Shown one piece after another: positions 8,502 through 33,592 of a stretch of DNA of 52,018 bases. Each line of letters begins with the position of its first letter. Position 1 is the stretch's first letter. The translations under genes were made by a program, and so were the position numbers. Under the pieces are notes generated by a model. That model saw nothing but the letters and a program-made list of their open reading frames with translations. It was not told the DNA's origin and did no database searches. The DNA is from Sistotremastrum niveocremeum HHB9708 (lineage: Eukaryota; Basidiomycota; Agaricomycetes; Sistotremastrales; Sistotremastraceae): assembly GCA_001630475.1 (NCBI GenBank), contig KV419415.1:269912-321929 (forward strand). The letters are read 5' to 3'.

Positions 8502-9782
8502 ATGCCTTGGTCGACTATCAAGCTCAATGATGGTCAGAGACTCGTTTCGGGCTCAGATTGATTACAGTGGACTGACATTGGATCGCTGATAGATACCGTT
8601 ATTCCGAATCTTGCATTCGGAACGTGGAAATTGGGGAACGCGCAGCTGGGGCAGGATCGAGTGATTCAGGCTTTCGATGCGGGCTTTACTCACATCGGTG
8701 AGCGCAATTACCCCCCTTCCGATGCCCCTATCTGACCAAGAAACGTGGATGACAAGATACAGCCCAGAATTATGGGAACGAGAACGAAGCTGGAGATGCG
8801 CTACACAGATCGGGCATATCGCGTGACAAAGTCTATATCACCACGAAATATTCTGGACGAGGAACGATCAGCGATTCCATTCGTCAAAGTCTCATCAAGG
8901 TCCGCTATAATAATCACCCTTTATCTAGTCTCATTAATCTCACACCTTGTCTTCAGCTCCGTGTAGACTACGTGGATCTATACCTGCTACATGCGCCCGA
9001 AGTCTCCAAACCGGATATCCAGACTGCTTGGGCTGAAATGGAGAAGCTGCAAGCTCAGGGACTTGCCAAGTACGTCCTACACCACTCGCTAAGGATAAGG
9101 AAGCCGAACTTGACTACTTGTTGCGCTCAGGAGCATCGGTGTGAGCAACTACGAGCCGTCAGACCTCGATACGCTCCTCAAGACTGCCAAAATCGTCCCC
9201 GCCGTGAATCAGGTACGCTCTATGCTAGCCATGACAAATGACAAACGCCGCCATTTAAGTTACATTATCCAGATTCTTTTCCATCCCTATGTATACGCCG
9301 AAACGCTCCCTCTCCTCGACTACTGCGCCAAGAAGAATATAGTGATCGAAGCATACAGTCCCCTCATGTATGTCCTCCTACATCAGCCATCGCTCCTGCT
9401 CGACTCATGCATATATCCCTCAGTCCCATTACATCCAAGCCCGGCGGTTCCGTCGATAAACCCGTCGCTCGTATCGCAGCTCGCGAACACGCTACACCCG
9501 CCCAGGTGTTGTTAGCTTGGGCGAAAGCCAAGGGTACCGTTGTGATTACGTAAGGCATTTATGTTGCTTCGGAGAAGGTCCAGTTGGCCAATGTTATTTG
9601 TATAGGTCGAGTCGGGAGAGGGAAAGGTTGGATGGGTATATTCAAGCTGGTGATCTGGGTACGTTTCTCTCACGGACATAATTTGTTGAACATATTGGTT
9701 GACATTTTGTCTTGCAGAGCTGACGAAAGCTGACATTGATGATATCGATGTTGCTGGCGCACTCGGGAGTACAAGATTTTGA
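8502..9782 (+). CDS. Aldo/keto reductase (AKR1)
   Basis: This predicts an NAD(P)H-dependent cytosolic aldo/keto reductase of 270 residues that reduces carbonyls; the substrate is unknown. Nine exons were inferred: 8502-8532, 8593-8697, 8757-8899, 8957-9069, 9131-9212, 9273-9367, 9424-9549, 9606-9658, 9718-9782. All have GT-AG borders and sum to a whole number of codons. The catalytic tetrad is visible as Asp and Tyr in HIDTAQNYGNE, Lys in ITTKYSG and His in YLLHAPE. SIGVSNY and IEAYSPL are typical of the family. Exon lengths 143/113/82/95/126/53 are identical to those of AKR2 at 27267-28690, so the two are duplicates. AKR1 lacks the C-terminal membrane tail of AKR2. Start: ATG opening MPWSTIKLND, aligned with the start of AKR2. 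Confidence 0.93.
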
Positions 9783-10608
9783 AGTCCAGATTCGCGTACT
9801 CAGAACAGTCTACGAGCCTCCTCTAGCGTTGCGACATCTGTCAAGAAATTGATCGTTGAGCCTTCCTGAATGCGAAGGAGCATTGGTCCCCGGGCCGGGC
9901 TCGCCGAGATGCCGTGTGATACACCACCACCACCGTGTGAGATTCTTTCCAGTGTTTACAACTCTTGTAGTACAACTCTTGATACTACTGCCACTACTAC
10001 GCAACTACAACGCCAGTATTATGTCCGATATTCGACGGCTGATACGGCAGACTGAACTGTCTATGGATGCGAATGTCAAATACCCTCGTTTGGTGTTCAC
10101 ATCTCATTTGTTGACTCGGCAGTGTCGGCAGTGATTATAGTGATCCACATTTCGTACCTTCTTGGTACCTCTACCGTAATATTAGTCGACTCGTATCAGT
10201 TTGACCCCTTTTCTACTCGTAAATTGGCAACTGTATTTCGGTGATTCCTGGCAACTACTGCGGACATTTGCTTTGAGAGACCCCTCTTGATCGTTCTCTG
10301 ACACTCTTTGTCTCGGCTTGCAACCGTTGATACTGAATTACGGATTACGGAACCGTCACTAGCTGCCAGTCAAAGCTCCATCATTGGCGAGACTATATAA
10401 AAGGGGGCAGCTGAGCATGTTTTCAGCTGTCCCTTTTCGCTTTTCCTGCAGGTGCGTATTGACTTGTATGTCTGGCTCTGAGCGCATTAATCTCTGACTG
10501 TCAAACTTTGCCCCCATGGGCTCTGGACAGGTCAGGCTCGAAAGCGTGGTACTGCACATCCAGTCTATCCCTTATCTCAGACAATAACCGAATATCTACT
10601 TACTCGTC
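9783..10608. other. Intergenic, AKR1 to SSP0
   Basis: No convincing gene is seen. A short open frame (9870-10055, 61 codons, Thr-rich) has no family resemblance and is not called. The stretch before 10609 is the promoter and leader of SSP0. Confidence 0.5.
10394..10402 (+). promoter_or_regulatory. TATA box of SSP0
   Basis: TATATAAAA lies 215 bp before the SSP0 ATG, in the context CTATATAAAAGGGGG. Similar TATATA boxes precede SSP1 (14720-14725, 163 bp before its ATG) and SSP3 (26325-26330, 149 bp before its ATG), which suggests shared promoter design with strong, regulated expression. Confidence 0.5.
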
Positions 10609-11091
10609 ATGAAGCCAACTGTGATTTATTCTGTATCATTGCTCATCTTCTCAGGCATTCTTGCCACTCCTGTCTCCAACAGTTTTTATGAAGCTCCCAC
10701 GAGCCTGAATCTTGAGTCTGAGGTAACCTCACCGGCTCGCGCTCAGGAAGCTTCCACGAGTAAGGTTTCCTACATACCATGACCCGTAATTCTTTGACCA
10801 GCCAAGCTAGTGATAATATCTGCTGCATCAGTGACACAGCACGCTAGAGACGTAGGTGGTGCTGGGCATGTACTCACTCGCTGCTTGCCCATCTCTGTCT
10901 AGGAGCAAGCACTATATAGTCGTAACGACATCTATTATTATTATGAACCCTCGGAGACTGGTTATGTCCCGACATTGCCGGTAAAGGCTTCTCTTCTCAG
11001 CTTCCGCAAGTGCTCAATGATTTTTCAGCAAATCCAGTGCACGTCGTCTGCGGGCCTCGATGAGGCTGGAGATTCTGATTGTGCTTCCTAG
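10609..11091 (+). CDS. Small secreted protein SSP0
   Basis: A predicted secreted protein of 103 residues, function unknown. Four exons were inferred: 10609-10759, 10832-10851, 10903-10980, 11029-11091, with introns of 72, 51 and 48 bp. An N-terminal hydrophobic signal (VIYSVSLLIFSGILA, then TPVS) is followed by a polar Ser/Glu-rich middle and a Tyr run (YYYYEPSE). The last exon starts QIQC and ends DCAS. That phase-0 start with Gln-x-x-Cys and a second Cys near the stop recurs in SSP1-SSP5. The second exon is only 20 nt, so the middle of the model is less sure than its ends. The gene faces 7TM-A, whose stop is about 510 bp away. Confidence 0.6.
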
Positions 11092-11601
11092 AGCTGTAAT
11101 TCGTATTGAATCTCTGCCGTGTATGGTTGATTAATATGAGTAACAAAAGGAACATCGTGAATGATGGTAACTGACGAGCGCTGAGTAGCAGCAGCAGAGA
11201 AGTAGAGAACAAGGACTCTAAGAAGCTCCAATCATGTCCCTCGTGAATGTTTGATCAGTATTGTACTAGTATAGTATTGGGACACCGATCGTCACCAAAT
11301 TGGATTTGCTCGGAGGCTTTGAACACTTTGGTCATGAACATGTCATATGATAGAGTACACCGTCTTGTTTATCCACTGCTACAGACCAGTGCGAATTCGG
11401 ACCTGGTCAAGAATTCTGGTTACAAGCCGTTCACCTGAGATTGCACGGCGTGTTGGACCCATGAGAGTCGGGATGCATCATACAAGTTGCTTATGGCGAC
11501 CATTAGCTAATAGGTTGCCCCTTTTCGATCACGACTCAATGAAGCGCGAGCTGTTGTGAGATCGATTATCTCACATATACACATTTATATATCACCTGAG
11601 C
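11092..11601. other. Intergenic between convergent SSP0 and 7TM-A
   Basis: I see no gene. It should hold both 3' untranslated regions and terminators. Confidence 0.5.
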
Positions 11602-13132
11602 TCAGTTGATGCCGTTGACCCTGGTTCGCTCGCTCTCTTCGCCAAGTGTTGCCACCTCCTCCATGTTTCCTCTTGGTCGCACACTCTCAGACGCTTGTTC
11701 TTCGTCAATTTCTTGCCTCTGATCGACCGTATCGCAGATGCAACTGGCTCCAGCTTTCATGGCCCGGGCGTTTTCGCATGAGGCATAATGTGTCCTCCAT
11801 CGGTCTGGTACACGTATGCCCCAGACCGCCAGAACATCCTGCAAGATACAGTGAACACACTTTCACAGAGTGGGCAAATATACCCACAGATTTAGTGGCG
11901 AGCACCAGAAATGCCACCAGCGCAGCTTCAAGCCACCCGATCAGTGGCAAATTTGGAAAGATAAAAAAATGCTCACTAGCAGCTTGCACGTATTGCACCG
12001 TAATACCCAAGGTTTGCAAGGCTCTCTCGGCATTTCCATGAAGAGACTGTCCGCTTTCTATCGTCATAATGATATACATGACAAGATACACCGCTCGATA
12101 TCCGCTGAACAACGACATTCTGACAATGATGTCACGGAGATGTCTTACTTCAGCTGCGCGATGAGCCCGGTATCTGAAGAGGAAACAAAGAATGAGGCCT
12201 GTCAATCGATAACATGGTCAGAGGATACATAGCGCGCAGAGGCAACGCTACCATCTAGTAAGGTTGCAACACCCAGAACCCCGATGGCAAGGAAGTAAGA
12301 TGGTACCCAGATATTCCTGGATTACAATGTGTTTGAATGTCAATGGCCTCGGATTGCAAACGATCAAGTAAAACGTCACCCTTTTGTAGTACAGAATTGT
12401 GCGTTGAATGTACTTGTAGCCACTTCACCAGATACTGGAGCACTCCACTGACGATCCAGATCAGTGTAACCCGGAAGTATTCTCAGCTTACTGGGCTCAA
12501 CACACCGCATATGTTTGGAAGAAAAATATCCCAAAGCCGAAGTAAGGCGTGTAAGCTAGCTGCTCATCCACATTCATTTCCAAGCGATAATAGGAGAAAT
12601 AAGGAAGAGTTTACCGTCTTTTCGACCCAGCGTTTGGAATTAGACTTCACGAACCAGGAAGGACGAGTTAAGCAGAAATAAAGCTGGACGACGCATGCGT
12701 CATATCGTTGCCGCTTTTTCGAAGATATCAATGACGTACGTTCAAGAGAAGGCTGAGCGTCGCAAGCGCAGTCCTACCCGTCTTCAGAGTGAGCTTCCGT
12801 GCAATCGAGAGTGAAGGCTTACATAATTGTGGCACCGTCATCTGCTGCCTGTGAGAAAAGACAGAGGCCTTGACTAGTGATTGTGGTTGATGAAATCGGG
12901 ATATAAGACCTGAGAGAGATGTTTCTCCAGAAGTTCGTCCGTTCCACGTTCAGTTCAACACTCACAATAAGGATCCTGCCACGGAGAAAACGATCCAAGA
13001 GATGCAAAAGTGAATCACGACAATGGATCTCTTTCTCTTGACAAATAAAAACGTGACCAGAAGAACAGGAAGACCGACGTGACCCCCAACAATTTGCAAG
13101 GTCAGAAGAACTGGTCGGTTGGCAGTTGACAT
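11602..13132 (-). CDS. Seven-transmembrane receptor-like protein A
   Basis: A predicted plasma-membrane 7TM protein of 346 residues. Ten exons were inferred on the minus strand: 13132-12966, 12909-12823, 12773-12740, 12683-12615, 12559-12506, 12447-12380, 12316-12252, 12198-11977, 11925-11888, 11838-11602. The lengths sum to 347 codons. Segments: TM1 around GGHVGLPVLLVTFLF, TM2 HFCISWIVFSVAGSLL, TM3 MTALATLSLLLN, TM4 YTPYFGFGIFFFQTYA, TM5 SYFLAIGVLGVATLLD, TM6 YRAVYLVMYIIMT, TM7 ALVAFLVLATKS, then a polar, acidic cytoplasmic tail. Basic residues after TM1 (KRKRS) and before TM6 fit the positive-inside rule. Exons of 167/87/34/69/54/68/65/222/38 nt match 7TM-B exactly. I know similar multi-copy GPCR-like families in basidiomycetes but recognise no named family. 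It does not look like STE3. The ligand is unknown. Confidence 0.8.
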
Positions 13133-14882: not shown

Positions 14883-15274
14883 ATGCGACTTTTCCTGACT
14901 GCCCGGTTCGCTATAATTGGCGTTTTCGCTTTGGGGGTGCAGGCCCACCCTCTGTTTCTCTCAGATATTGTTAGCTGGATCGATGCAGAGGTCGGAGCTT
15001 CCACTTCCACTTTGCCAACATATACGACGGAAGCACCCAGCAGCAGCACAGTTGTAATGTCCCTCTATTTGCTCATATCACTTCGTTCTCACATCTGCCA
15101 AAGAAGCCATCATCACCATTATTCAAAGATGCTAAAAATCCAGGCCACGTCATTACGTCCGAGGTACCTATATCCCCACAGCCCCAAAATTCCTCAAGTT
15201 CTAACATTTTTTATTAGCAGGTGATATGCAACATAGAGGCCACTGAGGATCAGGACGTCGGGTCATTCTGCTGA
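14883..15274 (+). CDS. Small secreted protein SSP1
   Basis: A predicted secreted protein of 95 residues, function unknown. Three exons (14883-15053, 15104-15163, 15218-15274), all phase 0. The signal peptide (IIGVFALGVQA) is followed by HPLFLSDIVSWID, nearly the same as QPLFLSKVIDWID in SSP3. The middle is Thr/Ser-rich. Exon 2 ends GHVITSE in both proteins. The last exon gives VICNIEATEDQDVGSFC, so the chain ends on Cys. The two Cys of the mature protein are in this exon and could pair with each other or between chains. It is a clear paralogue of SSP3 (26474-26869). Confidence 0.7.
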
Positions 15275-16076: not shown

Positions 16077-16518
16077 ATGCGATTCGGTGACTGGACTCAT
16101 ATTTTGACTCTGGCATCTGCGGCTCTCCTTGTACGCAGCGCTCCAACCGACTTGATTGACACTGGTTTGTCCAATACAACCCTTTTGTCAGATGCCTTTC
16201 TTCCAAAGGTTGCTCTAGACAATAAACCAAGTCAAACACAGGTATGTTATATGTAATGGTTCGGAAACATTATCCTTCAACCTTCTTGATCACAGGCTCC
16301 TGGGTCAATCCGATCATCGGCCCTCGCAGAACTTGCGGCACAGGCTACTGGATTTGAGCGAACGGGATTGTCCTTCACTGCAGTGGTGAGCTGACTGACT
16401 GAAAATCTCTCGATAGTGTCAGCATGCTAAACCTGATTTTTGTTCGAAGGATTCGATATGCACGGAGGCGCGCCTGGAGTCCTACAAAACCGGTCAAAGT
16501 CTGCCTTTGTTTTGTTGA
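16077..16518 (+). CDS. Small secreted protein SSP2
   Basis: A predicted secreted protein of 107 residues. Three phase-0 exons (16077-16241, 16296-16385, 16450-16518). It has the signal peptide HILTLASAALLVRSA, then a polar middle, an Ala-rich stretch (ALAELAAQATG) and a last exon opening DSICTEA and ending LFC at the stop. The C-x-x-EA...FC ending resembles SSP1 and SSP3 (C-x-x-EA...SFC), although the rest is not alignable by eye. Its stop lies only 36 bp from the stop of the convergent 7TM-B gene, so the two transcripts almost certainly overlap at their 3' ends. Confidence 0.65.
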
Positions 16519-16554: not shown

Positions 16555-19500
16555 TTATCTGATAAACAGAACGACACTGCTCTCCTCTCGATGTACACCT
16601 ATCGTCGCCTCTGTGTCCTGGCTTGATTGCACATTATCAAAACCTTCTTCCTCTCTTTGTTCAAGGTCATCACATATACATGTACTTGCAGGCGTTATTT
16701 CCCGCGCTTTGTCGCATGATGCGTAATGAGTCTGCCATCTCTCAGGAACACGAAGACCCCAGACTGCCAAGACATCCTGTGGCTAAATATCAGTGCACCA
16801 AACACACCATATATCACATGAGAACCGACCGATTTAGTTGCGAGAACCAGAAATGCTACCAGGGCATCTTCCATTCTATTTGATTATTGACGCTTTGGTA
16901 AAAGTGAGATAGTACTCACTAGCGGCTTGAACATATTGCACTGTGACGCTCAGTGATTGCAGTGCTTTCTCGGCATTTCCGGAGAGGTGTGAACCACTTT
17001 CTATCGTCATGATGATATACATAACTAGATAGACCGCTCGGTAAGCACTGAACAAGGACATTCTGATAATGATGTCATGAAGATGATTTGCTTCGAGCGC
17101 TGCACGGGCACGAGATCTGAAGAGGGAACAGAGAATGACGCCTGCCGAACAAAAGATCATCAATTATCATCGATCACATAGTTGGGAGAGGTCGAGGTAC
17201 CGTCTAGTAAAGTCGCCACACCGAGGATTCCGATTGCTGAGAAGTACGAAGGGACCCAGATCTTTCTGTATCACCTTGAGTCCGACGGTCTTGTATTTCA
17301 AAGGCTGAGAAAGACTCTACCCGTTCGAGGTACAGAATTGGACATTAAATGTGCTTGCGCCAACTTCGCCAGACAGTGGGGCACTCCACTAATTATCTAC
17401 ATAAGTAAATTCTTGAAATCATCAGCTCGAGTCATGTAGACACACCGCATAGGTCTGGAAGAAAAATGCCCAGAAGCTGACATAAGGTATGTATGCGAGC
17501 TGGTTATCTCGAGTCAGTTCATAGCATTACTGTTGAGAATATCGAGCCCGTATAGGAGTGCAGGGGGAGCTGATCCGGACGCTATGCCACTCGGGCGGAG
17601 TCCCAATCGGAGACTCTCTACTGTACAGTCGTAGATAAGTAGTATGTCGGAGTTTCATGTAGACCTCAGTGTTGTACCCAACGACTGAGGTCAGTATCTT
17701 TCTCATGTATTTCTTTTCACTTGCTCATTCCTTTCATAGCTATATTTCGCACAGGTAGTTTACATCAATATACTTAGTGTTGTACCCAACGACTGAGCTA
17801 TATTTCGCACAGGTTATGAGCCCTGCGCTCGAAAATTGATAGTCCAAGGTCCCTCACTCATTTTCTCTCGACATCCTTCCATTTTTTTTTCAAAACATCA
17901 TCGTATCCCGACATGTCTTCGGCAAACGATACACTAGCGAACGCGTTCAAGAACTTGCCGAACCTTACCGGCAGCGAAGACTACAGTGTCTGGAAGGCAA
18001 AACTCTCACTTATATTGGATATCAAGGGACTTCTGGGCTACGTCGATGGCTCAATTACAGAGCCTACTAGCACCATCGCCGATGTCACAGACAAAGATGG
18101 CGCAGTTACAGGGACAAAAATCGTCCCACCCGATGCCACTCTCCTCGAAGCATGGAATCTCCAGAATAAAAGGGCCAAACTCGACATTATGTTCAGCGTC
18201 AGTAAACCGTTGGTGCCGATTGTCAATGCTTGTACCACGGCACGAGAAGCTTGGAGGAAATTCGAGATATCTTACGAAAATCGTGGAGCACCTCAGATCA
18301 CATCCCTTATCCGAAAACTCTTCACTACGAGATACGTCGAGGGCACAGATATACAAGAACATTTCAACAATCTCATCACAATGAACAATGAAATGGCCAC
18401 CCTCAACTTCGTCCTCACGGACTTCATGTTCTCCTGTACCATCCAAGCATCCATGCCAGAGTCTTTTGGTGCTTTTGTCAGCATGATGAGCGTCCAGCCT
18501 CGTACAGTCGATGAAACCTGCAGCCTACTCCGTCAGGAAGTCGAACGGCGGAAGGAATCAAATCATATAGGTACCCTTGCCACCGAAACCGCATTAGCTG
18601 CACAGAGGGCTTCCAGGCCTCGTTGTGGGAACTGCGGGATGGCTACACATTCCAAAGAAATGTGCTGGGGTATTGGAGGCGGTAAACAAGGTCAGGGTCC
18701 AGCCGAACGACCGTACGGGAACATCAAAACACCTGAGCATCCCAACGGGAAACCAAGAGCTCGTGTTGCTCAGACTCAGGCAATACAACCAGTGGCTACT
18801 CTAACGCCCGTCCCTACTGTCCCCGTACCAATTCCACAAGCCAACATTGTCGACACTCGTATCGATCCCAGGGCCCTAGTTGCTGCCTTTAGCGCTGATA
18901 TCCTGGATGGTTACATTATAGATTCCGGCGCCACTAGGCACATCAGCAACAATCCTGCGGATTTTGTTGAACTTCACTCAACAAATATTGCTATCCGAGG
19001 TCTGGGTGGTCATATGGAGCAAAGCTCTGGTGTTGGCACTGTCAGGATAAAGTGGCTTGACACTGGTCGGATCATCGAACTCCAAAATGTCCTATACTCT
19101 CCAACCGCCGGTGTACGACTCATTTCAAAGTCGGAGCTTGACCTCCTCGGTTGGGAGTCTAGATCTAAAAATGGGATCTATAAGTGGTTCGATGCCCATG
19201 GTCATTTCCTTGGGACCGCTCACAAACAGAATGGAATGTGGCCCATCAATGCTACTATCGAAGGGCCTGTTGCCAACATCGTCTCAGCTCCTGGAGGGCC
19301 AAAAGCGAATAGGTACCTGTGGCACTGTCGCACAGGTCATCAGGCCATCTCTGCCATCGAGTCTATGATTCGGCATGGCACTGTGGATGGTCTTGATGTC
19401 GATATGACGGATCCCATACCCATATGTGGTCCCTGCATAAAAGGGAAACATGAGCGCATTTCGTTTCCTCGATCAGAAAATCGTGCCACTGCTCCTCTTG

Positions 19501-22500
19501 AGCGTATACACGCTGATCTCTGCGGCCCTTTCAGCGTTGCGAGTCGAGGTGGTCACAAATATTTTTTGGGACTCACCGACGATTACACTCGCATGTACTG
19601 GGTGTTCTTCCTTCGAGATAAGACAGGCATTCTCCAGATCTTCAAGGACTTCAAAGCTATAGCAGAAAATCAGTCCAATCATTCTTGGAAACGCCTCCGC
19701 AGCGATAACGGCGGTGAATTCGTCAATACCGAACTCGAAGAATGGCTCACTTCCCAGGGTATTCTGCACGAAACCACAGCTCCCTACACCCCTGAGCAAA
19801 ATGGCGTCGCAGAGAGGGCAAATCGCACGATAATGGAACGTGTCCGTGCCATGATCTATGCTCGAAATGTGAGCCTATCCTTCTGGGCCGAAGCTGTGAA
19901 CACTGCCACTTACCTTCGAAACCGTAGCCCCACATCCACATTGCCTAAAGGCAAGACACCTCATGAGATGTGGCATGGAGTCAAACCTAATGTGGGGCAT
20001 TTACGAGTTTTCGGAGTAAGGTGCTGGGTTCACGTACCGGATGAATTGCGTAGAAAACTCGATCCTAAATCCATTGAATGCATTTTCCTCGGTTATTACG
20101 ACGATTCGAAAGCCTACCGGTGCTATGATCCCAAAGCTCATCGCTACTACAAGTCTTGTCACGTCATTTTTGACGAGACCCTGCACAAAGTTGTCGAAAC
20201 TCCATTCTCTTCGCCTGCAGGGGGAGTTAAGCTGCTCGAATCGGATATGGAAGACTCACCTGATGAAGTCATGACCAATATCAACGAGGACGATGATATT
20301 AGTCCCCACGAACACGATGTTCAAGTCCCAGATCACACAGAACCTCAGCAGGATGATCAACGAGTAGAACTCGGCGAGGAGAACCAAGATGGAGAAAATA
20401 CAGAGGCAGACAACAGATCCGACGAAGGAGGCAATGCCGACGAAGAGAATCGAGCAGAGGAAACTAGACCCAGATCAAGAGCACCTAGACGACGCATAGA
20501 TTATGGACCACCTTCAAGAAAGTCACGCCGTAATGAAGGACTCGAAGCCGAACATTTCGTGCCACTAGAAGGAGCGCCCGTCCCTAAAACCACCGAGACG
20601 AGGCAAGACGATTCCGATAATGAATCAGAACTCTCGGAGGTGCCATCAGGTGCTGGATATATGGACAATGATGAAGAGTACGCATTCAATGCCCAGAAAG
20701 TCACAGTTTTACCATCAGGCATGGAGCCGAAATCGTATGAGGAAGCAATAAACAGCGAAGACAAAGAGCATTGGATTGCTGCCATGCAAACGGAAATTGA
20801 TACTCTTCATCAATACGGAACCTGGATTGTTGGACCACGCAGACCAGGAGTACAACTGGTCGGATCCAAATGGGTTTACCATATCAAACACGATGAAAAA
20901 GGGAAAATACTCAAATATAAGGCCCGACTGGTGGCACAGGGGTTTTCCCAACGATTTGGTGAATCATATTTTGATGTTTTCGCACCAGTTGGGCGATTTG
21001 AGTCCCTCAGGATGGTGATAAGCCTAGGAAAGAAGCTAGGATGGGTTATAAGGCAGGGAGACGTCAAATCTGCGTACCTGAATGGCCTTTTGGAGGAACT
21101 CATCGATCTGAAACAACCTGAAGGGTTTACAGAAGGCAACCTGGGCGATGTGTGCATTCTACGAGCACCATTATACGGCCTCAAACAAGCAGGACGAGCA
21201 TGGTACCTACACATCAACGAAATCTACAAAGAACTGGGCTTCGTACGAATTCACGTTGATCATGCTGTGTATGCTCGGAAAACCGAAACTGGTGCCAGTA
21301 TCGTTAACATGGCTGTAGACGATCTCGTCATGACTTCTAGTTCCAATTCTGAAGCGGACCGATTGGAAAAGGAACTCGGGGACAAGGTCAAAATGATTTT
21401 TGGTGGCGAGCTACATTGGATCCTAGGTATCGAAGTGGTGAATCAGCCAGACGGCTCATGTATCTTGACGCAACGGGCGTACATTGATACTCTCCTTCGA
21501 AGATTCAACCTTGACGGTTTCGAAGTTAAACCTGTCGCCACACCCCTCGATCCCTCAGTCGTAATCGACGCTTCTATGTCTCCTGCGCCAGATGACGTCA
21601 AAACCATAGCTGAGATGCGACGGGTTCCCTACCGTGAAGCTCTAGGAGCTATCAATTATGCGGTACATGCCACTCGACCCGATATCGCTCATGCTGCTCA
21701 GAAATTGGCCCGGTATTCTTCAAACCCTGGTCCAGCTCATTGGACAGCTGTTAAGCGAATCTTGAAATACCTGAAGGGAACACGAGATTTTGGAATCAGA
21801 TTGGGTGGAACAGACTCGGATGTGCCACTCGCCATTTATTCCGATGCCGACTGGGGTGAAGATCGTGACACCAGGAAATCAACTTCGGGCTATGCTGCCT
21901 ACTGCTTTGGTAGTTTGGTAAGCTGGAGCTCCAAGTTACAACCAACTGTCGCATTATCCACACTCGAATCCGAGTATATGGCTGCATCGCACGCCGTACA
22001 ACAAGCCCTATGGATGCAGGAATTTCTTAAAGAGCTTGATCTTCCTGGCCTGGGTTTACGTCCATTAGGACCTACACCACTATACATCGATAACCAGGGG
22101 ACTATCGCCTTTGCCAAAGGAACTACCAGTTATGGTCGCACCAAACATATCGATATTCGCCACCATTTCGTCCGAGAACAACTTGAAGCCAAACACATTA
22201 CTATCGACTACATACCGTCCAAAGAAAATGTTGCAGATCTATTTACCAAAGCTCTTGCACGACCACTTTTCGAAGCTCACTTGAACACCCTGCGTATCCA
22301 CGAGCTCGAGGGGGAGTGTTGAGAATATCGAGCCCGTATAGGAGTGCAGGGGGAGCTGATCCGGACGCTATGCCACTCGGGCGGAGTCCCAATCGGAGAC
22401 TCTCTACTGTACAGTCGTAGATAAGTAGTATGTCGGAGTTTCATGTAGACCTCAGTGTTGTACCCAACGACTGAGGTCAGTATCTTTCTCATGTATTTCT

Positions 22501-23144
22501 TTTCACTTGCTCATTCCTTTCATAGCTATATTTCGCACAGGTAGTTTACATCAATATACTTAGTGTTGTACCCAACGACTGAGCTATATTTCGCACAATT
22601 ACACCGCTAACGAATGACGTACAGCCTTCTCGATCCAAGGTCTATAATTGGGGTTCACGAACCAGGAAGGACGGACCAAGCAAAGATAAAGCTAAACAAG
22701 CAATAGATAAGATTGATCATCAGGAATCCATGATGTCGCTCGGCTGAGTATACGACTGACGTTCAAGAGAAGACTAAGAGTTGAAAGCGCAGTCCTACCC
22801 CGTAGTCAGAAACAGTACCGTCGAAGGGGTCAAGACTCACATGATAGTGGCCCCGTCATCTGCCGCTTGCGATAGAAGACAGAGGCCCTGGCTAGTGATC
22901 AAGTGCAATGGGATAGGAGTGTACGATCTGTGAGGCATCAGTAAAGTAATTGTGCCCATGTTCCGGTCAGCACTCACTGCAAAGATCCAGATATGGAGAA
23001 AATGATCCAACTGATACAGAAGTGGATTACGACCATAGATCGTTTGCGCTTGACAAAGCAAAAAGTGACGAGGAGAATGGGAAGACCGACATGTCCTCCC
23101 ACGATCTGCAGTGTCAGAAGAATAGGTCGATTGACTGCTGACAT
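16555..23144 (-). CDS. Seven-transmembrane receptor-like protein B, intron holds copia
   Basis: The paralogue of 7TM-A, 341 residues. Ten minus-strand exons: 23144-22978, 22927-22841, 22794-22761, 22691-22623, [copia], 17499-17446, 17388-17321, 17265-17201, 17141-16920, 16867-16830, 16776-16555. Exons 1-9 have exactly the lengths of 7TM-A. The fourth intron has a good donor (GTACGT) next to 22623 and a good acceptor before 17499. Without the 5,067-bp element and one copy of its 5-bp duplication it would be 51 bp. No stop or frameshift appears in the exons, so a normal protein could be made if the 5.1-kb intron is still spliced; otherwise the gene is silenced. The seven hydrophobic segments line up with 7TM-A, including GGHVGLPILLVTF and YRAVYLVMYIIMT. 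Confidence 0.8.
17526..17530. repeat. Copia target-site duplication, left
   Basis: ATTAC here and at 22598-22602 flanks the element, the 5-bp duplication expected of copia integrases. Confidence 0.95.
17531..17811 (+). repeat. Left LTR
   Basis: 281 bp, TG...CA ends. It contains a repeated internal block (TGTACCCAACGACTGAG, twice) and should carry the promoter and polyadenylation signal. Confidence 0.95.
17812..17823 (+). promoter_or_regulatory. Primer-binding site, half-tRNA type
   Basis: GGTTATGAGCCC begins directly after the LTR. It is complementary to the anticodon stem-loop of initiator tRNA-Met (around GGGCTCATAACC), as in Drosophila copia, where a cleaved half-tRNA primes reverse transcription, and not to a tRNA 3' CCA end. 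Confidence 0.75.
17913..22322 (+). CDS. Copia gag-pol polyprotein
   Basis: 1,469 residues, one frame, from the ATG 102 bp after the LTR to a TGA that lies 4-6 bases inside the right LTR. Order: gag (UBN2-like), zinc knuckle CGNCGMATHSKEMC (about 236), aspartic protease IIDSGATRHISN (about 335), gag-pre-integrase, integrase core (HADLCGPF about 532, SDNGGEF about 597, VAERANR), an acidic linker, reverse transcriptase (SKWVYHIK about 984, VKSAYLNG, YGLKQAGRAWY, AVDD about 1133) and RNase H (YSDADWG about 1308, ESEYMA, HHFVRE about 1415). This is the copia order, with integrase before reverse transcriptase. The active site reads A-V-D-D where copia elements usually have Y-V-D-D; both aspartates are present. 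Confidence 0.97.
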   Translation: MSSANDTLANAFKNLPNLTGSEDYSVWKAKLSLILDIKGLLGYVDGSITEPTSTIADVTDKDGAVTGTKIVPPDATLLEAWNLQNKRAKLDIMFSVSKPLVPIVNACTTAREAWRKFEISYENRGAPQITSLIRKLFTTRYVEGTDIQEHFNNLITMNNEMATLNFVLTDFMFSCTIQASMPESFGAFVSMMSVQPRTVDETCSLLRQEVERRKESNHIGTLATETALAAQRASRPRCGNCGMATHSKEMCWGIGGGKQGQGPAERPYGNIKTPEHPNGKPRARVAQTQAIQPVATLTPVPTVPVPIPQANIVDTRIDPRALVAAFSADILDGYIIDSGATRHISNNPADFVELHSTNIAIRGLGGHMEQSSGVGTVRIKWLDTGRIIELQNVLYSPTAGVRLISKSELDLLGWESRSKNGIYKWFDAHGHFLGTAHKQNGMWPINATIEGPVANIVSAPGGPKANRYLWHCRTGHQAISAIESMIRHGTVDGLDVDMTDPIPICGPCIKGKHERISFPRSENRATAPLERIHADLCGPFSVASRGGHKYFLGLTDDYTRMYWVFFLRDKTGILQIFKDFKAIAENQSNHSWKRLRSDNGGEFVNTELEEWLTSQGILHETTAPYTPEQNGVAERANRTIMERVRAMIYARNVSLSFWAEAVNTATYLRNRSPTSTLPKGKTPHEMWHGVKPNVGHLRVFGVRCWVHVPDELRRKLDPKSIECIFLGYYDDSKAYRCYDPKAHRYYKSCHVIFDETLHKVVETPFSSPAGGVKLLESDMEDSPDEVMTNINEDDDISPHEHDVQVPDHTEPQQDDQRVELGEENQDGENTEADNRSDEGGNADEENRAEETRPRSRAPRRRIDYGPPSRKSRRNEGLEAEHFVPLEGAPVPKTTETRQDDSDNESELSEVPSGAGYMDNDEEYAFNAQKVTVLPSGMEPKSYEEAINSEDKEHWIAAMQTEIDTLHQYGTWIVGPRRPGVQLVGSKWVYHIKHDEKGKILKYKARLVAQGFSQRFGESYFDVFAPVGRFESLRMVISLGKKLGWVIRQGDVKSAYLNGLLEELIDLKQPEGFTEGNLGDVCILRAPLYGLKQAGRAWYLHINEIYKELGFVRIHVDHAVYARKTETGASIVNMAVDDLVMTSSSNSEADRLEKELGDKVKMIFGGELHWILGIEVVNQPDGSCILTQRAYIDTLLRRFNLDGFEVKPVATPLDPSVVIDASMSPAPDDVKTIAEMRRVPYREALGAINYAVHATRPDIAHAAQKLARYSSNPGPAHWTAVKRILKYLKGTRDFGIRLGGTDSDVPLAIYSDADWGEDRDTRKSTSGYAAYCFGSLVSWSSKLQPTVALSTLESEYMAASHAVQQALWMQEFLKELDLPGLGLRPLGPTPLYIDNQGTIAFAKGTTSYGRTKHIDIRHHFVREQLEAKHITIDYIPSKENVADLFTKALARPLFEAHLNTLRIHELEGEC
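22308..22316 (+). promoter_or_regulatory. Polypurine tract
   Basis: GAGGGGGAG lies directly before the right LTR and would prime second-strand synthesis. Confidence 0.8.
22317..22597 (+). repeat. Right LTR
   Basis: 281 bp, the same as the left LTR by eye; followed by the second ATTAC (22598-22602). Confidence 0.95.
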
Positions 23145-24312: not shown

Positions 24313-25351
24313 TCATCTATAAAGGGATTCCAGCATCTCTACGACGCCTGCATCATCGATCTCCCTGCCATGCTTCTGGACTGCGAAGACCTTGCTATCG
24401 CACGCTCCACACATTTCTTGAATTTCGTAGAACATTCTGACTTTCTCAGCATCTGATGTTGCTGGCGCCATTCGTATGACCATTTCTGATATCTTCAGAA
24501 ATGTCGGGTAGATCAGACTGAGGTATCTTCAACATGGCGCACGTGGATAGACGGGCGATGAAAGCAACATACCATAATAACCTACCCAATACGTATCAGA
24601 TGTTTAATGCTTGGACCGAGACGCTAAACGGAGTACTCACCTTATGAGATGCAAATTATATTGAAGAGCGTTCGCTTTGCAATTGACTTTGGTCGGAGGA
24701 CCAAAGCCTACCAGACGTTCCTGAAAGACTGTTGCGATTTTCTGATGCAAGGCCACCATATCTCGGAGCTTTTTACGGCTGGCGTTTTCGATGGTGTTTC
24801 GTCTGCTTCGTCCCTTCTGGCATTCGGCTGCGTGAAGATAGGCACAATATCGGGACCATTGCTCCCATAGTCAAAACTTTGTCCGGGGAAGGTGTTTTCT
24901 GATGATACTCGTGCGTCCGCTGAATGACTATAGCTTGTCCCGTCGAAATTGTCGTGAGCGTGAGATGAAGATGTAGACGAAAAGAGTGGTAAAATCTTCG
25001 TGCTATTAGCATTATTCAGAGAGTGCTTCAAGATTATGAGTTGATCAGCGAACCGTAACGATGATAAGAATTATGGGCTACCTGAGATCCGGACGACGAA
25101 GGCACAGCGTTGTTATACATGGTCGTTTGGCTTACCCAGACCTCGTTCAGGGTAGGAATAGATGAAGGATCTGTAGGCCAGGCCTGAGATAGAGGCGAAC
25201 AACCGGCACCTGGCTGGAAAGGCCCATTGTTGCCTGCCGAAAATTGATACTGGCGATCAATTGGGGGTGTCCACATCAAGGAGTTCGATTCTTGCGCATG
25301 CTCGCCGCAGTTGTGCTGTAGATGTGAGTTCTGACTCCTGCGACGAGACAT
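24313..25351 (-). CDS. Putative bHLH-like regulator
   Basis: A predicted protein of 272 residues, five inferred minus-strand exons: 25351-25082, 25025-24878, 24827-24641, 24581-24573 and 24517-24313. The N-terminal half is Ser/Asn/Gln/Pro-rich and low in charge, as in many transcription factors. Exon 3 carries a basic stretch (QKGRSRRNTIENASRKKLRD), an amphipathic helix, a Gly/Pro loop and VNCKANALQYNLHLIRLL, which resembles the K-x-x-x-L...I second helix of bHLH proteins. The basic region is not a canonical E-box reader (it has ENASR, not ExxRR). The model needs a 9-nt exon and one weak donor (GTTTTG), but the introns are 50-59 bp and the frame closes. If correct it would be a nuclear regulator lying between modules 2 and 3. 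Confidence 0.42.
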
Positions 25352-25505
25352 ACAGATGTTTTGTATCGATGTCAGCGACCGTCGCAAGTCTGACACAAAG
25401 TTGCAGGATCCCAGTTCGCGACCGGTGAGTCCTTTTTAACCATCCTGTGGCCCTCCTGACGAGTTTTTTTTATTATTTTCACAGCTTTGTTGTCGACATT
25501 GGATG

Positions 25506-26060
25506 TCAGATAGGATGGAAAGTATGGCCTTCGAGGCGTGAGCGCAGCACGGATGGCTCTCTCGGGAGGATGCGGGGATCATTCTCCTGCGCGCTCCTTG
25601 AAGAAAGCATCCGATTTCGCTCGTGGTCGGGTTGATCAGGGGGATTTTCCGCTGCCAGAGCCGGAGAGATCTCACGCCCTCCCAGAAGATCATCCGAGAT
25701 AGCAGCGCTGCGGAGAAGTCGGCCGGAGTAGAGTTCCCCTGAACGGACATGAAAGTCGTGGCGGTAGCATGGCTACCCGAACGCCTCCAGACTCCATCTG
25801 AAGTCGCAGCAACCATCGGGGGCGGTCTCATTCTCCGAGCTTCTCTCCGATCCTGCTTCTCAGATATGCAAGAGATCCAGATCCATGCAAAAGTTGTTCA
25901 CTCTGATTTGAGTGTTTGTTGAGAGTCGGATCAGGTGCGTGATGGGCGGCGAGGAAAAAGAGTCAAGGAGGCACAAGCTTGCCGAGCCGGGGTTCTCCGA
26001 AGGTAAACTCCCTGATACCTCTGCATCACTTCGAGAACGCACTTGGTCTACCTTGTCCAT
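25506..26060 (-). CDS. Hypothetical protein, two-exon model
   Basis: A tentative 141-residue protein from exons 26060-25902 and 25772-25506. It starts MDKVDQVRSRSDAEV and is hydrophilic (Ser, Arg, Asp, Glu, Pro), with no signal peptide or membrane segment. The 129-bp intron is longer than others in the window. It could be a 5' part of the bHLH-like gene just downstream, or not a gene. No family is recognised. Confidence 0.25.
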
Positions 26061-26473: not shown

Positions 26474-26869
26474 ATGCGACTCTTGGTTTCTACCTCTTTT
26501 CTGTTGCTCTGTACTAGAGTTTTGGAGGGGCTGGCCCAGCCCCTCTTCCTCTCGAAAGTTATCGACTGGATCGATAACGAAGCTGGACTTTCAAGTACCT
26601 TTTCTCCATCTCGTACGGCGGAAGCAGCCAGCAGCACAACGGTGATAATCTTTCGATTTTCGAGGAAGATGAGAAAACTACGTAATGCTGATCTATTTGA
26701 TAGACTCCGTCAAGATTGACGGATGCCAGTAAGACTCTTGGTCACGTCATCACATCCGAAGTAGGACTCATCTTTCAACAATCGGGTCTCCACCTCACTG
26801 AGATTTTATCAGGAAGTGATTTGCGACGTTGAGGCTGAGGAGGGGCAATATTCTGGGTCATTTTGCTGA
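26474..26869 (+). CDS. Small secreted protein SSP3
   Basis: A predicted secreted protein of 93 residues. Three phase-0 exons (26474-26641, 26704-26760, 26813-26869). Signal peptide LVSTSFLLLCTRVLEGLA, then QPLFLSKVIDWID, a Ser/Thr-rich middle, GHVITSE at the end of exon 2 and a last exon ending VICDVEAEEGQYSGSFC. It is the closest relative of SSP1, with the same intron positions. Function unknown. It lies 400 bp upstream of AKR2 on the same strand. Confidence 0.72.
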
Positions 26870-27266: not shown

Positions 27267-28690
27267 ATGGTCTCGACTATCACATTGAACGATGGTAATA
27301 CCCAGAAATTTATCAGAAAAAAGTAGCACGGAGAGTTCAATTATGTTCGTTTTATTCTAGGCTCCAAAATCCCTATCATTGCCTTTGGTACAAGCAGTCT
27401 TGTAACGCAGTTGAGGCGGCGAAGCTGACTTTGATACAGGAACATGGACTGCTGGACATGGCCAGATAGTCACAGACCGTGTCGAACAGGCGTTGGACAC
27501 TGGATTCGACCACATTGGTATGAGAGTCGTGTCTCGTTTGCCAGGGCGTAACTGATCAGATGTGTCCTGTGAATGCACATCAGACACTGCACAGTCCTAC
27601 GGGAACGAAGAAGAGACCGGGAAAGCCATTCGGGAGAGTGGGCTTAAGAGGACTCAGATCTATGTTACCACAAAGTTTTCGGGACGGAAGGATGTTGAGA
27701 CGTCAATCAAAGACAGCTTGAAATATGTATGTCACTCCATAATTTCTCCTAGCTCTCTGATGTTGATACGCGTTTGAAGCTGGGTCTCGAATATGTGGAC
27801 CTCTATCTCGTCCACCACCCTCGTCTCGCAAACGGCGACATCCCTGGCCTCTGGAAGAAGATGGAGAAGATCAAAGCTGACGGCCTCGCAAAGTGCGTTG
27901 ATGCATCTTCTCGTCATCATTCAATACTGACACATCCTCAGGAGCATTGGCGTTAGTAACTTCGGACTCGAGGATCTCAAAATTCTCTACGAACACGCCA
28001 AAGTCCTCCCCGTCGTCAATCAGGTTCGTCGACGTCCCATCCTCAGCGCTCTCATCACAAGCTCACGACTAACCTTTCCCGCTCAGATCTACTTCAACCC
28101 GTATTCGTACAAGCAGCAACTCGATGCACATGCTTTCGGCATCTCTCACGGCATCGTCACCGAGGCGTATTCGGCTCTGGAGTACGTCTATTATATCCTC
28201 TGCTCGACCTGAACTCATAGAAATACTGTATCATCCAGTCCCATCACGCGTCGTCCTGGCGGTCCCGTAGATAGGCCGCTGGCAGTGATCAGCCGCCGTC
28301 ACAATGTCACTCCTGAGCAAGTCCTCCTCGCGTGGGTTCGTCAAAAGCACGCTGTAGCAGTCACGTCAGTGCACACCCTCGCTTCAGTTGACTATAGCTG
28401 ACGCGTCTTCCTTCACTCTTCAGGTACAGCTCAAAGAAAGAACGCTTGGAAGGATATCTTGACTCTTTGGAGCTCGGTGTGTACCTCTTCTCTGCACAAT
28501 AGCCTCGTCATTGACCGATGCTTCATTGCTTTCAGAGCTTCTCCCAGATGAGATTGCCGCTCTCGATTATGCCGGCGCGAAGAAATGGTGGCTTTCGACA
28601 TCCACCATCGCCAAGCGCGTCGTACCGGTTCTCGCTATGTCCGCCTTGGGATTGGGCGTCAGTTACTACACTGGTGTTCGCATGTGGTAA
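27267..28690 (+). CDS. Aldo/keto reductase with C-terminal membrane anchor (AKR2)
   Basis: A predicted NAD(P)H-dependent aldo/keto reductase of 299 residues. Ten inferred exons: 27267-27294, 27361-27387, 27440-27517, 27584-27726, 27780-27892, 27942-28023, 28087-28181, 28239-28364, 28424-28476, 28536-28690. The tetrad is visible: Asp and Tyr in [11 protein letters not shown], Lys in VTTKFSG, His in YLVHHPR. It duplicates AKR1 but has one extra intron, near FGT. The last exon is longer and adds a hydrophobic stretch ([14 protein letters not shown]) near the C-terminus, preceded by basic residues, so the enzyme may be tail-anchored to a membrane. Substrate unknown. It converges on 7TM-C, with 150 bp between stops. 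Confidence 0.93.
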
Positions 28691-28840
28691 ATGGAATGGA
28701 CAATGGCACGAGTCGCTGAGACACGAGCGACATGCAAAAATCTACACAGAACGATATCCGATTATCCGCCTAGGATATCCGATGACTTGTATCATACAAC
28801 TAGCAGCAATAACATGAATTATCTGGCCCCAATCCATGTC

Positions 28841-30317
28841 TTAATGACGCCGGATATCCAAGAACTGCGTACTCGCGCCATCGCTGCGCGGGGAGCCTGC
28901 CATTTGCGTTCCCTTTGAGCTCTCCGAAGGGGTGGCGAAGCTGGGCTGGATGTAATTGCGGTCATACAAGGTCTCGCTATTTGGATATTCGGTCGGGTAG
29001 CTCGGGTAGCTCGGATCGGATTTGATCGGAAGTTCGGAATCTTCGAAGCTGTACATTGACGATCGGCGAGACCGGAACGATAGCCATGATCTCCAAGTTT
29101 GAAGGACATCCTATATTCGACATTAGCAATAATGCTACATGAAGAAGGGTGGCGAACGTACCGATCTTGTACACAACATGAGGAACGCGACGAGAGGAGC
29201 TGCAACACACGTTAGTGAGGTTGATATACATCGAGGGTGGAAGAAGAGGCAGCACAAACCTCCTGTCTGGAGCAACGAAAGAGAATATTCGAGGTTGGCG
29301 AACGATAGGCTCGTAGTGTCTGATTCCATACCGTCGACCATGACCAACAGTACCAGAATCGTGGAGACAATTCGATAAGCACTGAACAAGGATAGCTTGA
29401 TGATCATTCGCCGAAGATACTTGATCTCCAAGGCTGGTTCAGCCTTAGCTCTTCGGAAAACGGACCAAAGAACGATTGCGTCTAGGATTGTCGCCAGGCC
29501 AAGGATGGCGATAGATATAAGATACACTGGGATCCACATATCACTGTCTATGGTGATTAGTGGACGAGAAGAGCGACACTATTTGACGTACCCGGAGTTG
29601 ATGCAGTAATCTTGCCCAAAAGTGTTATCACCCTGTTGGCCATCACTCGGCGCACTGAGCTGTACAAACATGAGCATGGTCATCTCGAAGTAAATTTTCA
29701 CCATTTACCGCATAAGTGACGAAGAAAGGGGCCAAGAATGCGATGTAAGGAGAGTACGCAAGCTGTAAGAGATTGAGACAATGATAAACAAAGTGGAAGG
29801 ATCATACCGAGAATTCGACGTTATGTCGAGAGTCCTCGTTCACATACCACGAGGGCCGTAAAATAGAAAACCAAAGCTGGGGCCTAATTAGGTCTCGCAC
29901 AGCCATACATTAAGAAAACCCACATTGAGAAGGAAGGTTAAAGTGGACAGAGATGTCCTGAAAGAGTTTCAATCTTCCGCGAAACATGTCGGAGGACAAC
30001 TTACATGACAACAGCTCCGTTAGTCATTGCTTCCGATAGTAGGCATAGCCCTTGGCTGGACTCGGCTTTAAGTGGTGTGGTACGGTACATTCTGAAGGTG
30101 AAGCATTAATAGGAATGTAATGATCAGTGAAGAAGACGCCTTACAATAATGAAAATGATACAGAGAAAATAACCCATGAGACGCAGAATTGGGTAACAAC
30201 GATAGACCGGGATTTCTTCATGAAGAAAAAAGTGATGATGAGCAGTGGAAGGCCAATGTGGCCTCCGAGGAGTTGGATGGCGAGAAAAATCTGGACTTGT
30301 TGGGAAGGCGAAAGCAT
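28841..30317 (-). CDS. Seven-transmembrane receptor-like protein C
   Basis: The third 7TM paralogue, 358 residues. Nine minus-strand exons: 30317-30145, 30091-30005, 29957-29924, 29876-29808, 29762-29709, 29659-29592, 29543-29260, 29199-29162, 29110-28841. Exons of 87/34/69/54/68/38 nt match A and B; the 65- and 222-nt exons are fused here (284 nt), so one intron was lost here or gained in A/B. Conserved blocks: LGGHIGLPLLIITFFF, FCVSWVIFSVSFSLL, SSQGLCLLSEA, LSLFSAYRIVSTILVLLV. The cytoplasmic tail is unlike those of A and B: a Pro/Ser/Tyr repeat (DPSYPSYPTEYP) with many possible phosphorylation sites. It is the most diverged copy. Confidence 0.8.
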
Positions 30318-30530: not shown

Positions 30531-30540
30531 TTATATAATA
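30531..30540 (+). promoter_or_regulatory. TATA-like box
   Basis: TTATATAATA lies about 65 bp before the ATG of the tentative small gene at 30602. It supports some plus-strand transcription here. Confidence 0.35.
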
Positions 30541-30601
30541 CGCCCGCCACGACGGGAAATTGACTCACCAGTTGTTGACGATCGCGAGCAAAAGATTTAA
30601 A

Positions 30602-30840
30602 ATGCAGGGTCAGGTCTCGCCGTCCGACAGCATTTCCAATGATGCCATCAGGAATTTAGAGAAGCAGGTAAACGGGGGCTCCCTGGGTCGATGGTATCTA
30701 GGAGCGTTCTCGCTGAGTTCATGAACTGGTCTCCGCGGACATTGCGTGATATCTGGACAATCATGCAGCTGAGCAGTATCGGAACCACCAACCACGGAGA
30801 AAGCTGCCACGGCAGCTGCCACGGCGCGAGGAGAAGATGA
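30602..30840 (+). CDS. Tentative small Cys-ending protein
   Basis: A weak two-exon model (30602-30667, 30769-30840), phase 0, 45 residues. The second exon ends with a CHGSCHG-type repeat, faintly like the HGSC ending of SSP4. There is no signal peptide and the intron (101 bp) is long for this window, so this may be chance or a decayed relative of the secreted family. Confidence 0.15.
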
Positions 30841-32002: not shown

Positions 32003-32479
32003 ATGCACATTCATTTACGACTATTCATTGCTCTCCTCCTTCTCCTCCCCTCCCTGGCATTGCCAACACCGAAACTAGACGAAGACCCTCAAACTAGCAT
32101 AGGGGTAGAAAGCGGAAACGCATCCGAGATCCACAGCTTCCAGCCGCGCCAAGACAATAGTACTTCGAGCATTATCCCAGCCTCGAGCACCATCCTCCTT
32201 GTAGCAGCTCCCGAACCCACGGAGTCTGTTGCACCCCTGTTCACTCAGGTTCTGCACGCAGCTTTGGAACCTACGGAAACCATTTCATCCGCAACTCCTC
32301 AGACCACCCATGGATCAGCCCTTGGATCCGCTTCGACTCCGGGTGGTGTCATCCATGTAGGGGGAACGCAAGTCATACAAGCTTTTCCTGTGCGCTAGTG
32401 TTCGCTTCTTCTTACTGCATAGTATCTAATCCGTTTCTAGCAACTCGCGTGTACCTTCCATGGCTCATGTGGCAAATAA
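32003..32479 (+). CDS. Small secreted protein SSP4
   Basis: A predicted secreted protein of 141 residues; exons 32003-32389 and 32441-32479. Signal peptide (LRLFIALLLLLPSLA, then LPTPK), then PRQDNSTSS, with an N-glycosylation sequon, and a Pro/Thr/Ser-rich, mucin-like body suited to O-glycosylation. The 39-nt last exon encodes QLACTFHGSCGK, with the only Cys residues of the protein. If the intron is missed the protein would end without any Cys. Function unknown; cell-wall or effector-like roles are possible. Confidence 0.7.
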
Positions 32480-33081
32480 TCTGTTCCGACTTCAATCCTA
32501 GAATTGTAGCCGAGGAAGGAGATGACGTATGAGCCGCTTTTACTTTGGAACCCGGGGATGCATGTCTGATTGCGCTCAAAGCAGAGCGGGATGCCTAGAA
32601 AGCCGTTTTTGTACTCCCTTGTTGTTCCTGATATCATGTTGATCTGATGCACTGGCAGCACTACGAATTCTCATAGAGAACCTGGGTCAATCACTATTCA
32701 TTCTACGTCTATACTATCGTCTCGTCGCACCTAGCGGGCATCAGACAAACTATGCCGCCATCATTGATCGTCGGGATTAAACAGGGTGAACCTACTGGGC
32801 TACCTATTTAATACCCTGAGTCGCGCAGTGATGCGTGATTCAGCCTTAAATGAGCCTTACATGAAAGAATGAATCACTGTCACTCTGTATACCCCAAGCT
32901 CTAGGCTCGTCGCACAACCTCACTTTCATTTCTTCTTCGAGCTGGCCTCGTTTCTCATCTGGCTATTCACTCTTTTTCTCGACGATATTGAAGCTTCTGC
33001 TGGTCGCTGGTCGCTCAACGATACTACCAAAGTAATGCCTCTTCATGCAAGCTATTTCCTGAACACTGATCATTGATTCAG

Positions 33082-33592
33082 ATGCACATTCATCTGCGAC
33101 TATTTATTGCTCTTCTCCCTCTCCTCACTTCCTTGGCGTTGCCAGCACCGAAACTAGATCACGCAGCCCAAACCACCGTACAGGTCATCGAAAGTGGATT
33201 GGCGATCCAGACCCATATCTTCCGACCTCGTCAAGACAACAGTACTTCGAGCCTATTACCACCCTCCACCCTTGCCTCCACCACCACCACCACCACCCCT
33301 GTAGCAGCCCCCGAACCCACGGGGAACGTTACAACCCTGCTCACTCACCTCGAAGCAGCCTCCCCAAGTGTAGAACCTACTGAAACTGTTCCACCTGCGA
33401 GTACCCAGAGCGCTGAAGAATCAGCCCTTGAGACCGCTTCTACTCCGGATCCGGAAGCCCTCATCCATTTCTCGGGGAAGCACATTATACAAGCCCTTCC
33501 TGTACGATACCGTTATTTTCTTTCTACTGCTTGACGTCTCAATTCATTTATAGCAAATTATGTGCAGCTTTCGCGGCTCATGTGGTAAATAA
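33082..33592 (+). CDS. Small secreted protein SSP5
   Basis: The tandem paralogue of SSP4, 152 residues; exons 33082-33501 and 33554-33592. It has the same signal peptide, a shared PRQDNSTSS, a Thr run (TTTTTT) and the last exon QIMCSFRGSCGK. The ATG was chosen by homology to SSP4. The conserved C-terminal nonapeptide pattern C-[ST]-F-x-G-S-C-G-K against a drifting body suggests the tail is the functional part. Confidence 0.72.

Follow-up and report, generated by a model that had tools for sequence, protein, structure and literature searches.

Short secreted proteins with a two-cysteine last exon lie beside GPCR-like seven-transmembrane genes in Sistotremastrum niveocremeum

We examined a 52-kb stretch (the window) of contig C22 in the assembly of Sistotremastrum niveocremeum HHB9708 (34.7 Mb in 111 contigs), in which three genes for seven-transmembrane (7TM) proteins are interspersed with six genes for short secreted proteins (SSPs); all comparisons were made within this one genome. 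Gene models were built by hand and then checked by script, and those of the 7TM and SSP genes are predictions from DNA alone. An initial annotation had described three paralogous 7TM genes on the minus strand, and our models reproduce them in the same order: TMA (11602..13132; 10 exons, 346 amino acids), TMB (16555..23144; 10 exons, 341 amino acids) and TMC (28841..30317; 9 exons, 358 amino acids). All three genes are intact, with open reading frames throughout, and their introns are GT-AG introns of 45–69 nt, except for intron 4 of TMB, which carries a transposable element. The exon joints are common to all three genes, save that two exons of TMA and TMB are fused in TMC. The proteins of TMA and TMB are 76% identical and those of TMA and TMC 39% identical.

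The six SSP genes also stand in the order and on the strand previously described, all of them on the plus strand and two of them (SSP4 and SSP5) after TMC. SSP0 (10609..11091; 4 exons, 103 amino acids; last exon QIQCTSSAGLDEAGDSDCAS) lies tail to tail with TMA, and its inner exons are the least certain part of the six models. SSP1 (14883..15274; 3 exons, 95 amino acids; last exon QVICNIEATEDQDVGSFC) lies head to head with TMA, the starts being 1.75 kb apart, and SSP2 (16077..16518; 3 exons, 107 amino acids; last exon DSICTEARLESYKTGQSLPLFC) lies tail to tail with TMB. SSP3 (26474..26869; 3 exons, 93 amino acids; last exon EVICDVEAEEGQYSGSFC) is a paralogue of SSP1 and lies head to head with TMB, with starts 3.3 kb apart. 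SSP4 (32003..32479; 2 exons, 141 amino acids; last exon QLACTFHGSCGK) is head to head with TMC, with starts 1.7 kb apart, and is followed by its tandem paralogue SSP5 (33082..33592; 2 exons, 152 amino acids; last exon QIMCSFRGSCGK). The signal peptides of these proteins were assigned by hydropathy only.

The SSPs have a common last-exon design, a structure which the initial annotation had overlooked. In all six window genes the last intron is in phase 0, and the short exon after it opens with Q/E/D-x-x-Cys and stops either at the second cysteine or two residues past it. The two cysteines are spaced C-x13-C in SSP0, SSP1 and SSP3, C-x17-C in SSP2 and C-x5-C in SSP4 and SSP5. Two SSPs found outside the window and described below (SSP-C7 and the C22:218k SSP) bring the number to eight; apart from the signal peptide, all eight proteins contain exactly two cysteines, each of which lies in the last exon. 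The architecture is thus a signal-peptide-like N-terminus, a cysteine-free middle and a separate two-cysteine last exon at or near the C-terminus. Beyond the signal peptide, clear alignment was found only for SSP1 with SSP3 and for SSP4 with SSP5 (z scores of 29 and 30); the C22:218k SSP scores weakly against SSP1 and SSP5 (z about 4) and SSP0 does not exceed z 3 against any other SSP. Both the 7TM and the SSP genes look coding from their ratios of non-synonymous to synonymous change (dN/dS), which are 0.42 for SSP1/SSP3, 0.46 for SSP4/SSP5 and 0.10 for TMA/TMB, the last being only a rough value because dS (1.39) is near saturation.

We compared these proteins with the two precursor schemes best known from fungal pheromones. 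None of the eight has a CaaX box (a cysteine four residues from the end), the last cysteine being at the end or 1–2 residues before it, and dibasic (Kex2-like) pairs occur only in the C22:218k SSP, where they stand at positions 42 and 54 of a 131-residue protein, well away from the tail. As seven of the eight lack dibasic sites and none has a CaaX end, the proteins fit neither the scheme of alpha-factor nor that of the lipopeptides. A search of the genome with five of the eight SSPs as queries (SSP1, SSP2, SSP5, SSP-C7 and the C22:218k SSP) returned, besides their own sites and the window paralogues, weak matches only. These were C6:1143k to SSP1 (E = 0.37), where no SSP was found in the 3.2 kb examined, and matches on C19, C30 and C13 to the C22:218k SSP (E = 0.06 to 1.7). 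A match of C6:1025229-1025444 (+) to SSP5 (36% identity, E = 0.0019) is confined to the low-complexity middle of the protein.

A genome search with the 7TM proteins found at least 16 sites of this family. Besides the three of the window these are C22:104k, C22:218k, C22:236k, C22:239k, C7:134k, C6:112k, C6:157k, C43:75k, C43:107k, C43:127k, C43:129k, C33:211k and C13:147k. Seven of these 16 sites are therefore on contig C22, and the C13 member is more distant, so that the family extends further within the genome. To look for SSPs by design rather than by sequence, we used a scanner that requires a signal-peptide exon followed, across at most three introns, by a last exon in phase 0 carrying the two-cysteine pattern. 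It was fixed on the window SSPs, and the outside DNA scanned came to 92,921 bases, made up of 11 stretches around 7TM sites plus a 3.2-kb locus that has no 7TM gene. Within the window the last exons of all six SSPs were recovered, together with two chance-looking matches, at 4234 (within a Helitron-like frame) and 34983; it should be noted that the scanner finds the right last exons for the known SSPs, yet several are mis-spliced further up.

Two convincing new SSPs were found outside the window and each is beside a 7TM gene. SSP-C7 (C7:131666-131966, minus strand; last exon RLQCLLYHRCS) lies head to head with the C7 7TM gene at a distance of 1.9 kb; this 7TM is the closest relative of TMC and its sister in the tree (support 95/89). 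The C22:218k SSP (C22:217782-218225; last exon QIFCEFQNACDL) lies about 50 kb from the window and about 0.2 kb from, and tail to tail with, a distant 7TM relative whose identity to TMC is only about 31%. Its last exon was first seen alone at the edge of locus L023, and the upstream DNA, fetched afterwards, held a matching signal-peptide exon. Under a tighter filter (last exon beginning with Q, E, D or R, and a signal score of at least 2.3) there were 2 matches in the 92,921 outside bases, vs 0.011–0.013 expected from Markov background sequence, which was trained on the same DNA and contains no real secreted genes (9 matches in 71.6 Mb). The looser pattern occurs 0.6 times per 100 kb in such background (12 in 2 Mb), giving about 0.6 expected vs 3 seen. 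The opposite flank of the C7 7TM gene, at about 7556-8666 (+) of L071, has a second gene with a start resembling a signal peptide, MQVLLLVALLASSVFA; by eye this gene is without a two-cysteine tail.

Other matches were set aside. A strict match at C22:112508-112567, 7 kb from the C22:104k 7TM gene, was judged spurious because the start of its model is unlike a signal peptide, and relaxed-pattern matches near C22:104k, 236k and 239k were judged by eye to be chance or parts of 7TM genes. The lone last exons at C22:238193 and at five places on C13 had no signal-peptide exon. In total, 5 of the 16 family sites in this genome have an SSP beside the 7TM gene; at C43:75k, C43:107k and C33:211k the view was limited to about 1.5 kb each side of the matched exon.

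The initial annotation had arranged the window as three tandem modules of plus-strand genes running toward a minus-strand 7TM gene. This layout is real, but the modules do not hold as duplicated units and are geometric only, because SSP0 matches no other SSP and because the homologous SSP1 and SSP3 lie beyond the 5′ ends of TMA and TMB, respectively. Homology favours other units, namely TMA with SSP1 and TMB with SSP3, in which both members are paralogous, and likewise TMC with SSP4/SSP5, comparable to the C7 7TM with SSP-C7. In these four pairs the 7TM and SSP genes diverge on opposite strands with starts 1.7–3.3 kb apart, whilst the arrangement with the 7TM gene is tail to tail for SSP0, SSP2 and the C22:218k SSP. 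The interval between TMB and SSP3 holds a possible gene at 24300-25831 (−), with several short open frames, two of which gave no Pfam match.

If the two tail cysteines enclose a loop, its length is 13, 13, 17 and 13 residues beside TMA and TMB and 5, 5, 5 and 5 residues beside TMC, C7 and C22:218k. This clean split of four vs four requires that SSP3 is assigned to TMB, as its kinship to SSP1 indicates; assigned to TMC, it makes the split unclean. A split of this kind is expected by chance one time in 35, or roughly one in ten when each of the two pairs of paralogues is counted once, and the association of loop size with receptor group is no more than suggestive.

We found several features that make the 7TM family GPCR-like (GPCR, G protein-coupled receptor), short of proof. 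Hydropathy resolves seven segments in TMC; in TMA and TMB it resolves six, the fourth transmembrane segment being too weak to reach the threshold. Of the TMC loops, those that would face inwards carry basic residues and the outer ones are not basic, which suggests an orientation with the N-terminus outside and the C-terminus inside. Class A GPCRs habitually carry a cysteine pair linking the outer end of the third transmembrane segment (TM3) with the second outer loop, and in an alignment inspected by eye all seven close-clade members have a cysteine at each of these positions, from which we infer a probable bond of the same kind. In Pfam scans (TMA and TMC; ten members from 10 of the 16 sites) none of the fungal GPCR class models listed in PMC12842992 was matched; the best scores were to Mpv17_PMP22 (E = 0.089) and 7TM_GPCR_Srx (E = 0.1), in one member each, and to DUF1218 (E = 0.2) in three members. 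No transporter family was matched at a significant level in the Pfam scans, and DUF6534 did not match any of the ten members at E values up to 5. A search of the PDB gave no convincing relative, the top profile match being synaptogyrin (E = 0.02).

The ten members scanned also matched neither STE3 (PF02076) nor STE2. In a genome search PF02076 matched on C35 and C13 only, with none on C22, and as the STE3 matches lie elsewhere the window is ruled out as a mating-type B locus. These matches are multi-copy, at C35:8-76 kb and C13:527-627 kb, and possibly represent the mating B region together with another STE3 region. The many STE3 matches and the short introns of the gene models are in keeping with a mushroom-type basidiomycete.

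TMB was considered as a pseudogene. Its intron 4 contains a long terminal repeat (LTR) retrotransposon (17531..22597, plus strand), which is Copia-type by eye. The element is 5.07 kb (5067 bp) long, with two identical 281-bp LTRs and one open frame of 1469 amino acids. The 5 bp duplicated at the target are ATTAC (17526-17530 and 22598-22602). The identical LTRs and the target duplication indicate that insertion was recent. Intron 4 measures 5123 nt, and removal of the 5067 bp and of one 5-bp duplication leaves 51 nt; as the element is intronic and the frame is open, the pseudogene was ruled out, although the insertion may alter the splicing of TMB.

Two aldo/keto reductase (AKR) genes accompany the 7TM genes of the window. 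AKR1 (8502..9782, plus strand; start and end set by eye) has a stop-free alignment to the AKR2 model at 8511-9365 and is probably a neighbour that was carried along. AKR2 (27267..28690, plus strand; end set by eye) matches Pfam Aldo_ket_red with E = 1.1e−24 over the modelled part, 27267-28181, in which one exon is incomplete. A third aldo/keto reductase (C22:241332-242159, plus strand) adjoins the 7TM gene at C22:239k. No AKR was found at C7 or C22:218k, in 10.0 and 8.8 kb examined respectively, or in the stretch examined at C22:104k. The link between SSP and 7TM genes is therefore wider than that between AKR and 7TM genes, and it is not universal.

Other genes and elements were also observed around the cluster. 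Just past the last SSP, a gene at 34101-34733 (+) matches PhzC-PhzF in Pfam (E = 4.5e−24) and stands in tandem with a gene at 35782-36552 (+) which is alike by eye. At the start of the window, 2655-8180 (−) is a 1841-amino-acid open frame which by eye resembles a Helitron-type helicase. Towards its end, a reverse transcriptase (RVT_1, E = 1.6e−23) at 49449-50312 (+) and a frame at 43956-45974 that is endonuclease-like by eye may belong to an element of the long interspersed nuclear element (LINE) type.

GPCR-like 7TM genes thus stand beside SSPs of the two-cysteine-tail design at three places in the genome, and in our view the best single explanation is a multi-copy peptide–receptor system that is not a mating system, a reading to which we give a little short of an even chance. 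In such a system a single disulfide between the two tail cysteines would close a loop at the C-terminus, 5, 13 or 17 residues long, to serve as the recognition end. The neighbouring 7TM protein would be the receptor of the SSP and would couple to a G protein, and duplication of the pair followed by change in the loop would give rise to new specificities. Since a loop of 5 residues is also seen beside the distant 7TM at C22:218k, this length may be the older one. A ligand–receptor role had been proposed in the initial annotation, and it gained from a test that was able to fail, in that the same SSP design recurred beside 7TM genes at C7 and C22:218k; it is weakened by the 11 of 16 family sites that are without a convincing SSP. 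That annotation had also stated that its proposal would be refuted by related genomes in which 7TM and SSP genes expand independently and are never adjacent, and the present genome shows such independent expansion in part: three of the 11 sites without a convincing SSP belong to the close clade.

Several further observations weigh against the peptide–receptor explanation. The close-clade 7TM genes at C22:104k, 236k and 239k seem to lack an SSP, since their flanks were examined over 97–114 kb and 234.0–244.65 kb without a convincing one being found, and the SSP-bearing 7TMs are not gathered on the tree (3 changes, with 56 of 500 shuffles as low). The tighter filter was partly chosen post hoc, R having been admitted once the C7 match was known, and the looser pattern gave three chance-looking matches in about 145 kb of real sequence, which is above the Markov rate. 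The split in loop size was likewise spotted post hoc, and apart from the tail the SSP sequences are mostly unrelated. In addition, AKR genes recur with 7TM genes on C22 (window 8.5k and 27.3k; C22:241k), and segmental duplication can therefore join unrelated genes.

This last point leads to the close runner-up, a possible explanation in which the genes are neighbours by history: a fast-evolving, duplication-prone stretch would have copied 7TM, SSP and AKR genes together, with the 7TM proteins sensing something other than the SSPs and the SSPs having a task of their own. The concentration of family sites on C22, the repetition of AKR genes at three places, the three members of the close clade without a convincing SSP and the transposable elements in the window would all be expected under it. 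Against it, the SSP link persists both at C7, which is another contig, and at C22:218k, and the stretches examined at these two places gave no AKR; the C22:218k 7TM has diverged far from TMC, and loop size tracks receptor group. This tracking would not be expected either if the SSPs were effectors, surface proteins or antimicrobials, with the 7TM proteins sensing the same outside partner and the two being co-regulated without binding each other. Small secreted proteins are common in fungi, N-glycosylation motifs are present in four of the eight SSPs and several of their middles look Ser/Thr/Pro-rich by eye, all of which suit that explanation, but we consider it improbable. Least likely by some way is a ribosomal-peptide cluster, in which the SSPs would be precursors with a C-terminal core, AKR and PhzF-like enzymes would modify them and the 7TM protein would provide export or immunity. 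The variable part of the precursors is indeed at the C-terminus and AKR and PhzF genes are nearby; however, as no AKR was found at C7 or C22:218k no constant enzyme is seen, and the 7TM proteins scanned gave no significant match to a transporter family.

Should the peptide–receptor explanation hold, it would open a wider and more tentative prospect, which we regard as possible but doubtful: a second, non-mating peptide recognition system in mushrooms, with an unnamed GPCR-like family and co-duplicated SSPs bearing a single disulfide loop whose length (5, 13 or 17) varies by receptor group. Such a system could serve self/non-self or neighbour sensing. Most fungal GPCRs are described as orphans in the abstract of PMC13308352, and a survey reported in PMC12842992 counts 141,666 seven-helix proteins from 1357 fungal species as unassigned. 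The present loci place a receptor-like family beside probable peptide ligands whose likely binding part is marked by a separate exon, and as the candidate ligands are named and short enough for synthesis, what such receptors sense would become directly testable.

We found no published account of a two-cysteine-tail secreted family beside 7TM genes, in a literature search outside which most preprints and subscription journals fell. One close comparison is with the B mating-type loci of mushrooms (STE3 with lipopeptide pheromones), in which receptor and small precursor genes are clustered and specificities vary, as is generally known and as the relevant passage of PMC13308352 describes. The window is like these loci in its clustering of receptor-like and small precursor genes, and unlike them in that those 7TM proteins scanned do not match STE3 and its precursors have a signal peptide and a two-cysteine tail with no CaaX. 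With STE2 and alpha-factor of ascomycetes it would share a secreted peptide sensed by a 7TM receptor, here putative; it differs from them in having no STE2 match, dibasic sites in only one of the eight SSPs and, by eye, no repeated core. The Brl non-mating receptors of Schizophyllum commune are orphans for which, in the passages of PMC8161036 that deal with them, self-sensing is proposed and secreted proteins are considered as ligands; unlike the window 7TMs they are described there as STE3-type and without surrounding pheromone genes. The DUF6534 7TM proteins of Agaricomycotina, proposed as GPCRs by Liu et al. 2025 (PMC12842992), are similar in being a large lineage-restricted 7TM family with that proposed role, as features of DUF6534 itself; unlike the window loci, no secreted partner is reported for them in the sections consulted, and the word 'secreted' is absent from the main text of that account. 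Finally, Um.Gpe1 of Ustilago maydis belongs, going by the title of the preprint by Mendoza-Rojas et al. 2025 and the passage citing it in PMC13308352, to a co-evolved peptide–GPCR pair involved in host entry, and on that basis the likeness to the window would be that of a peptide–GPCR pair in a basidiomycete.

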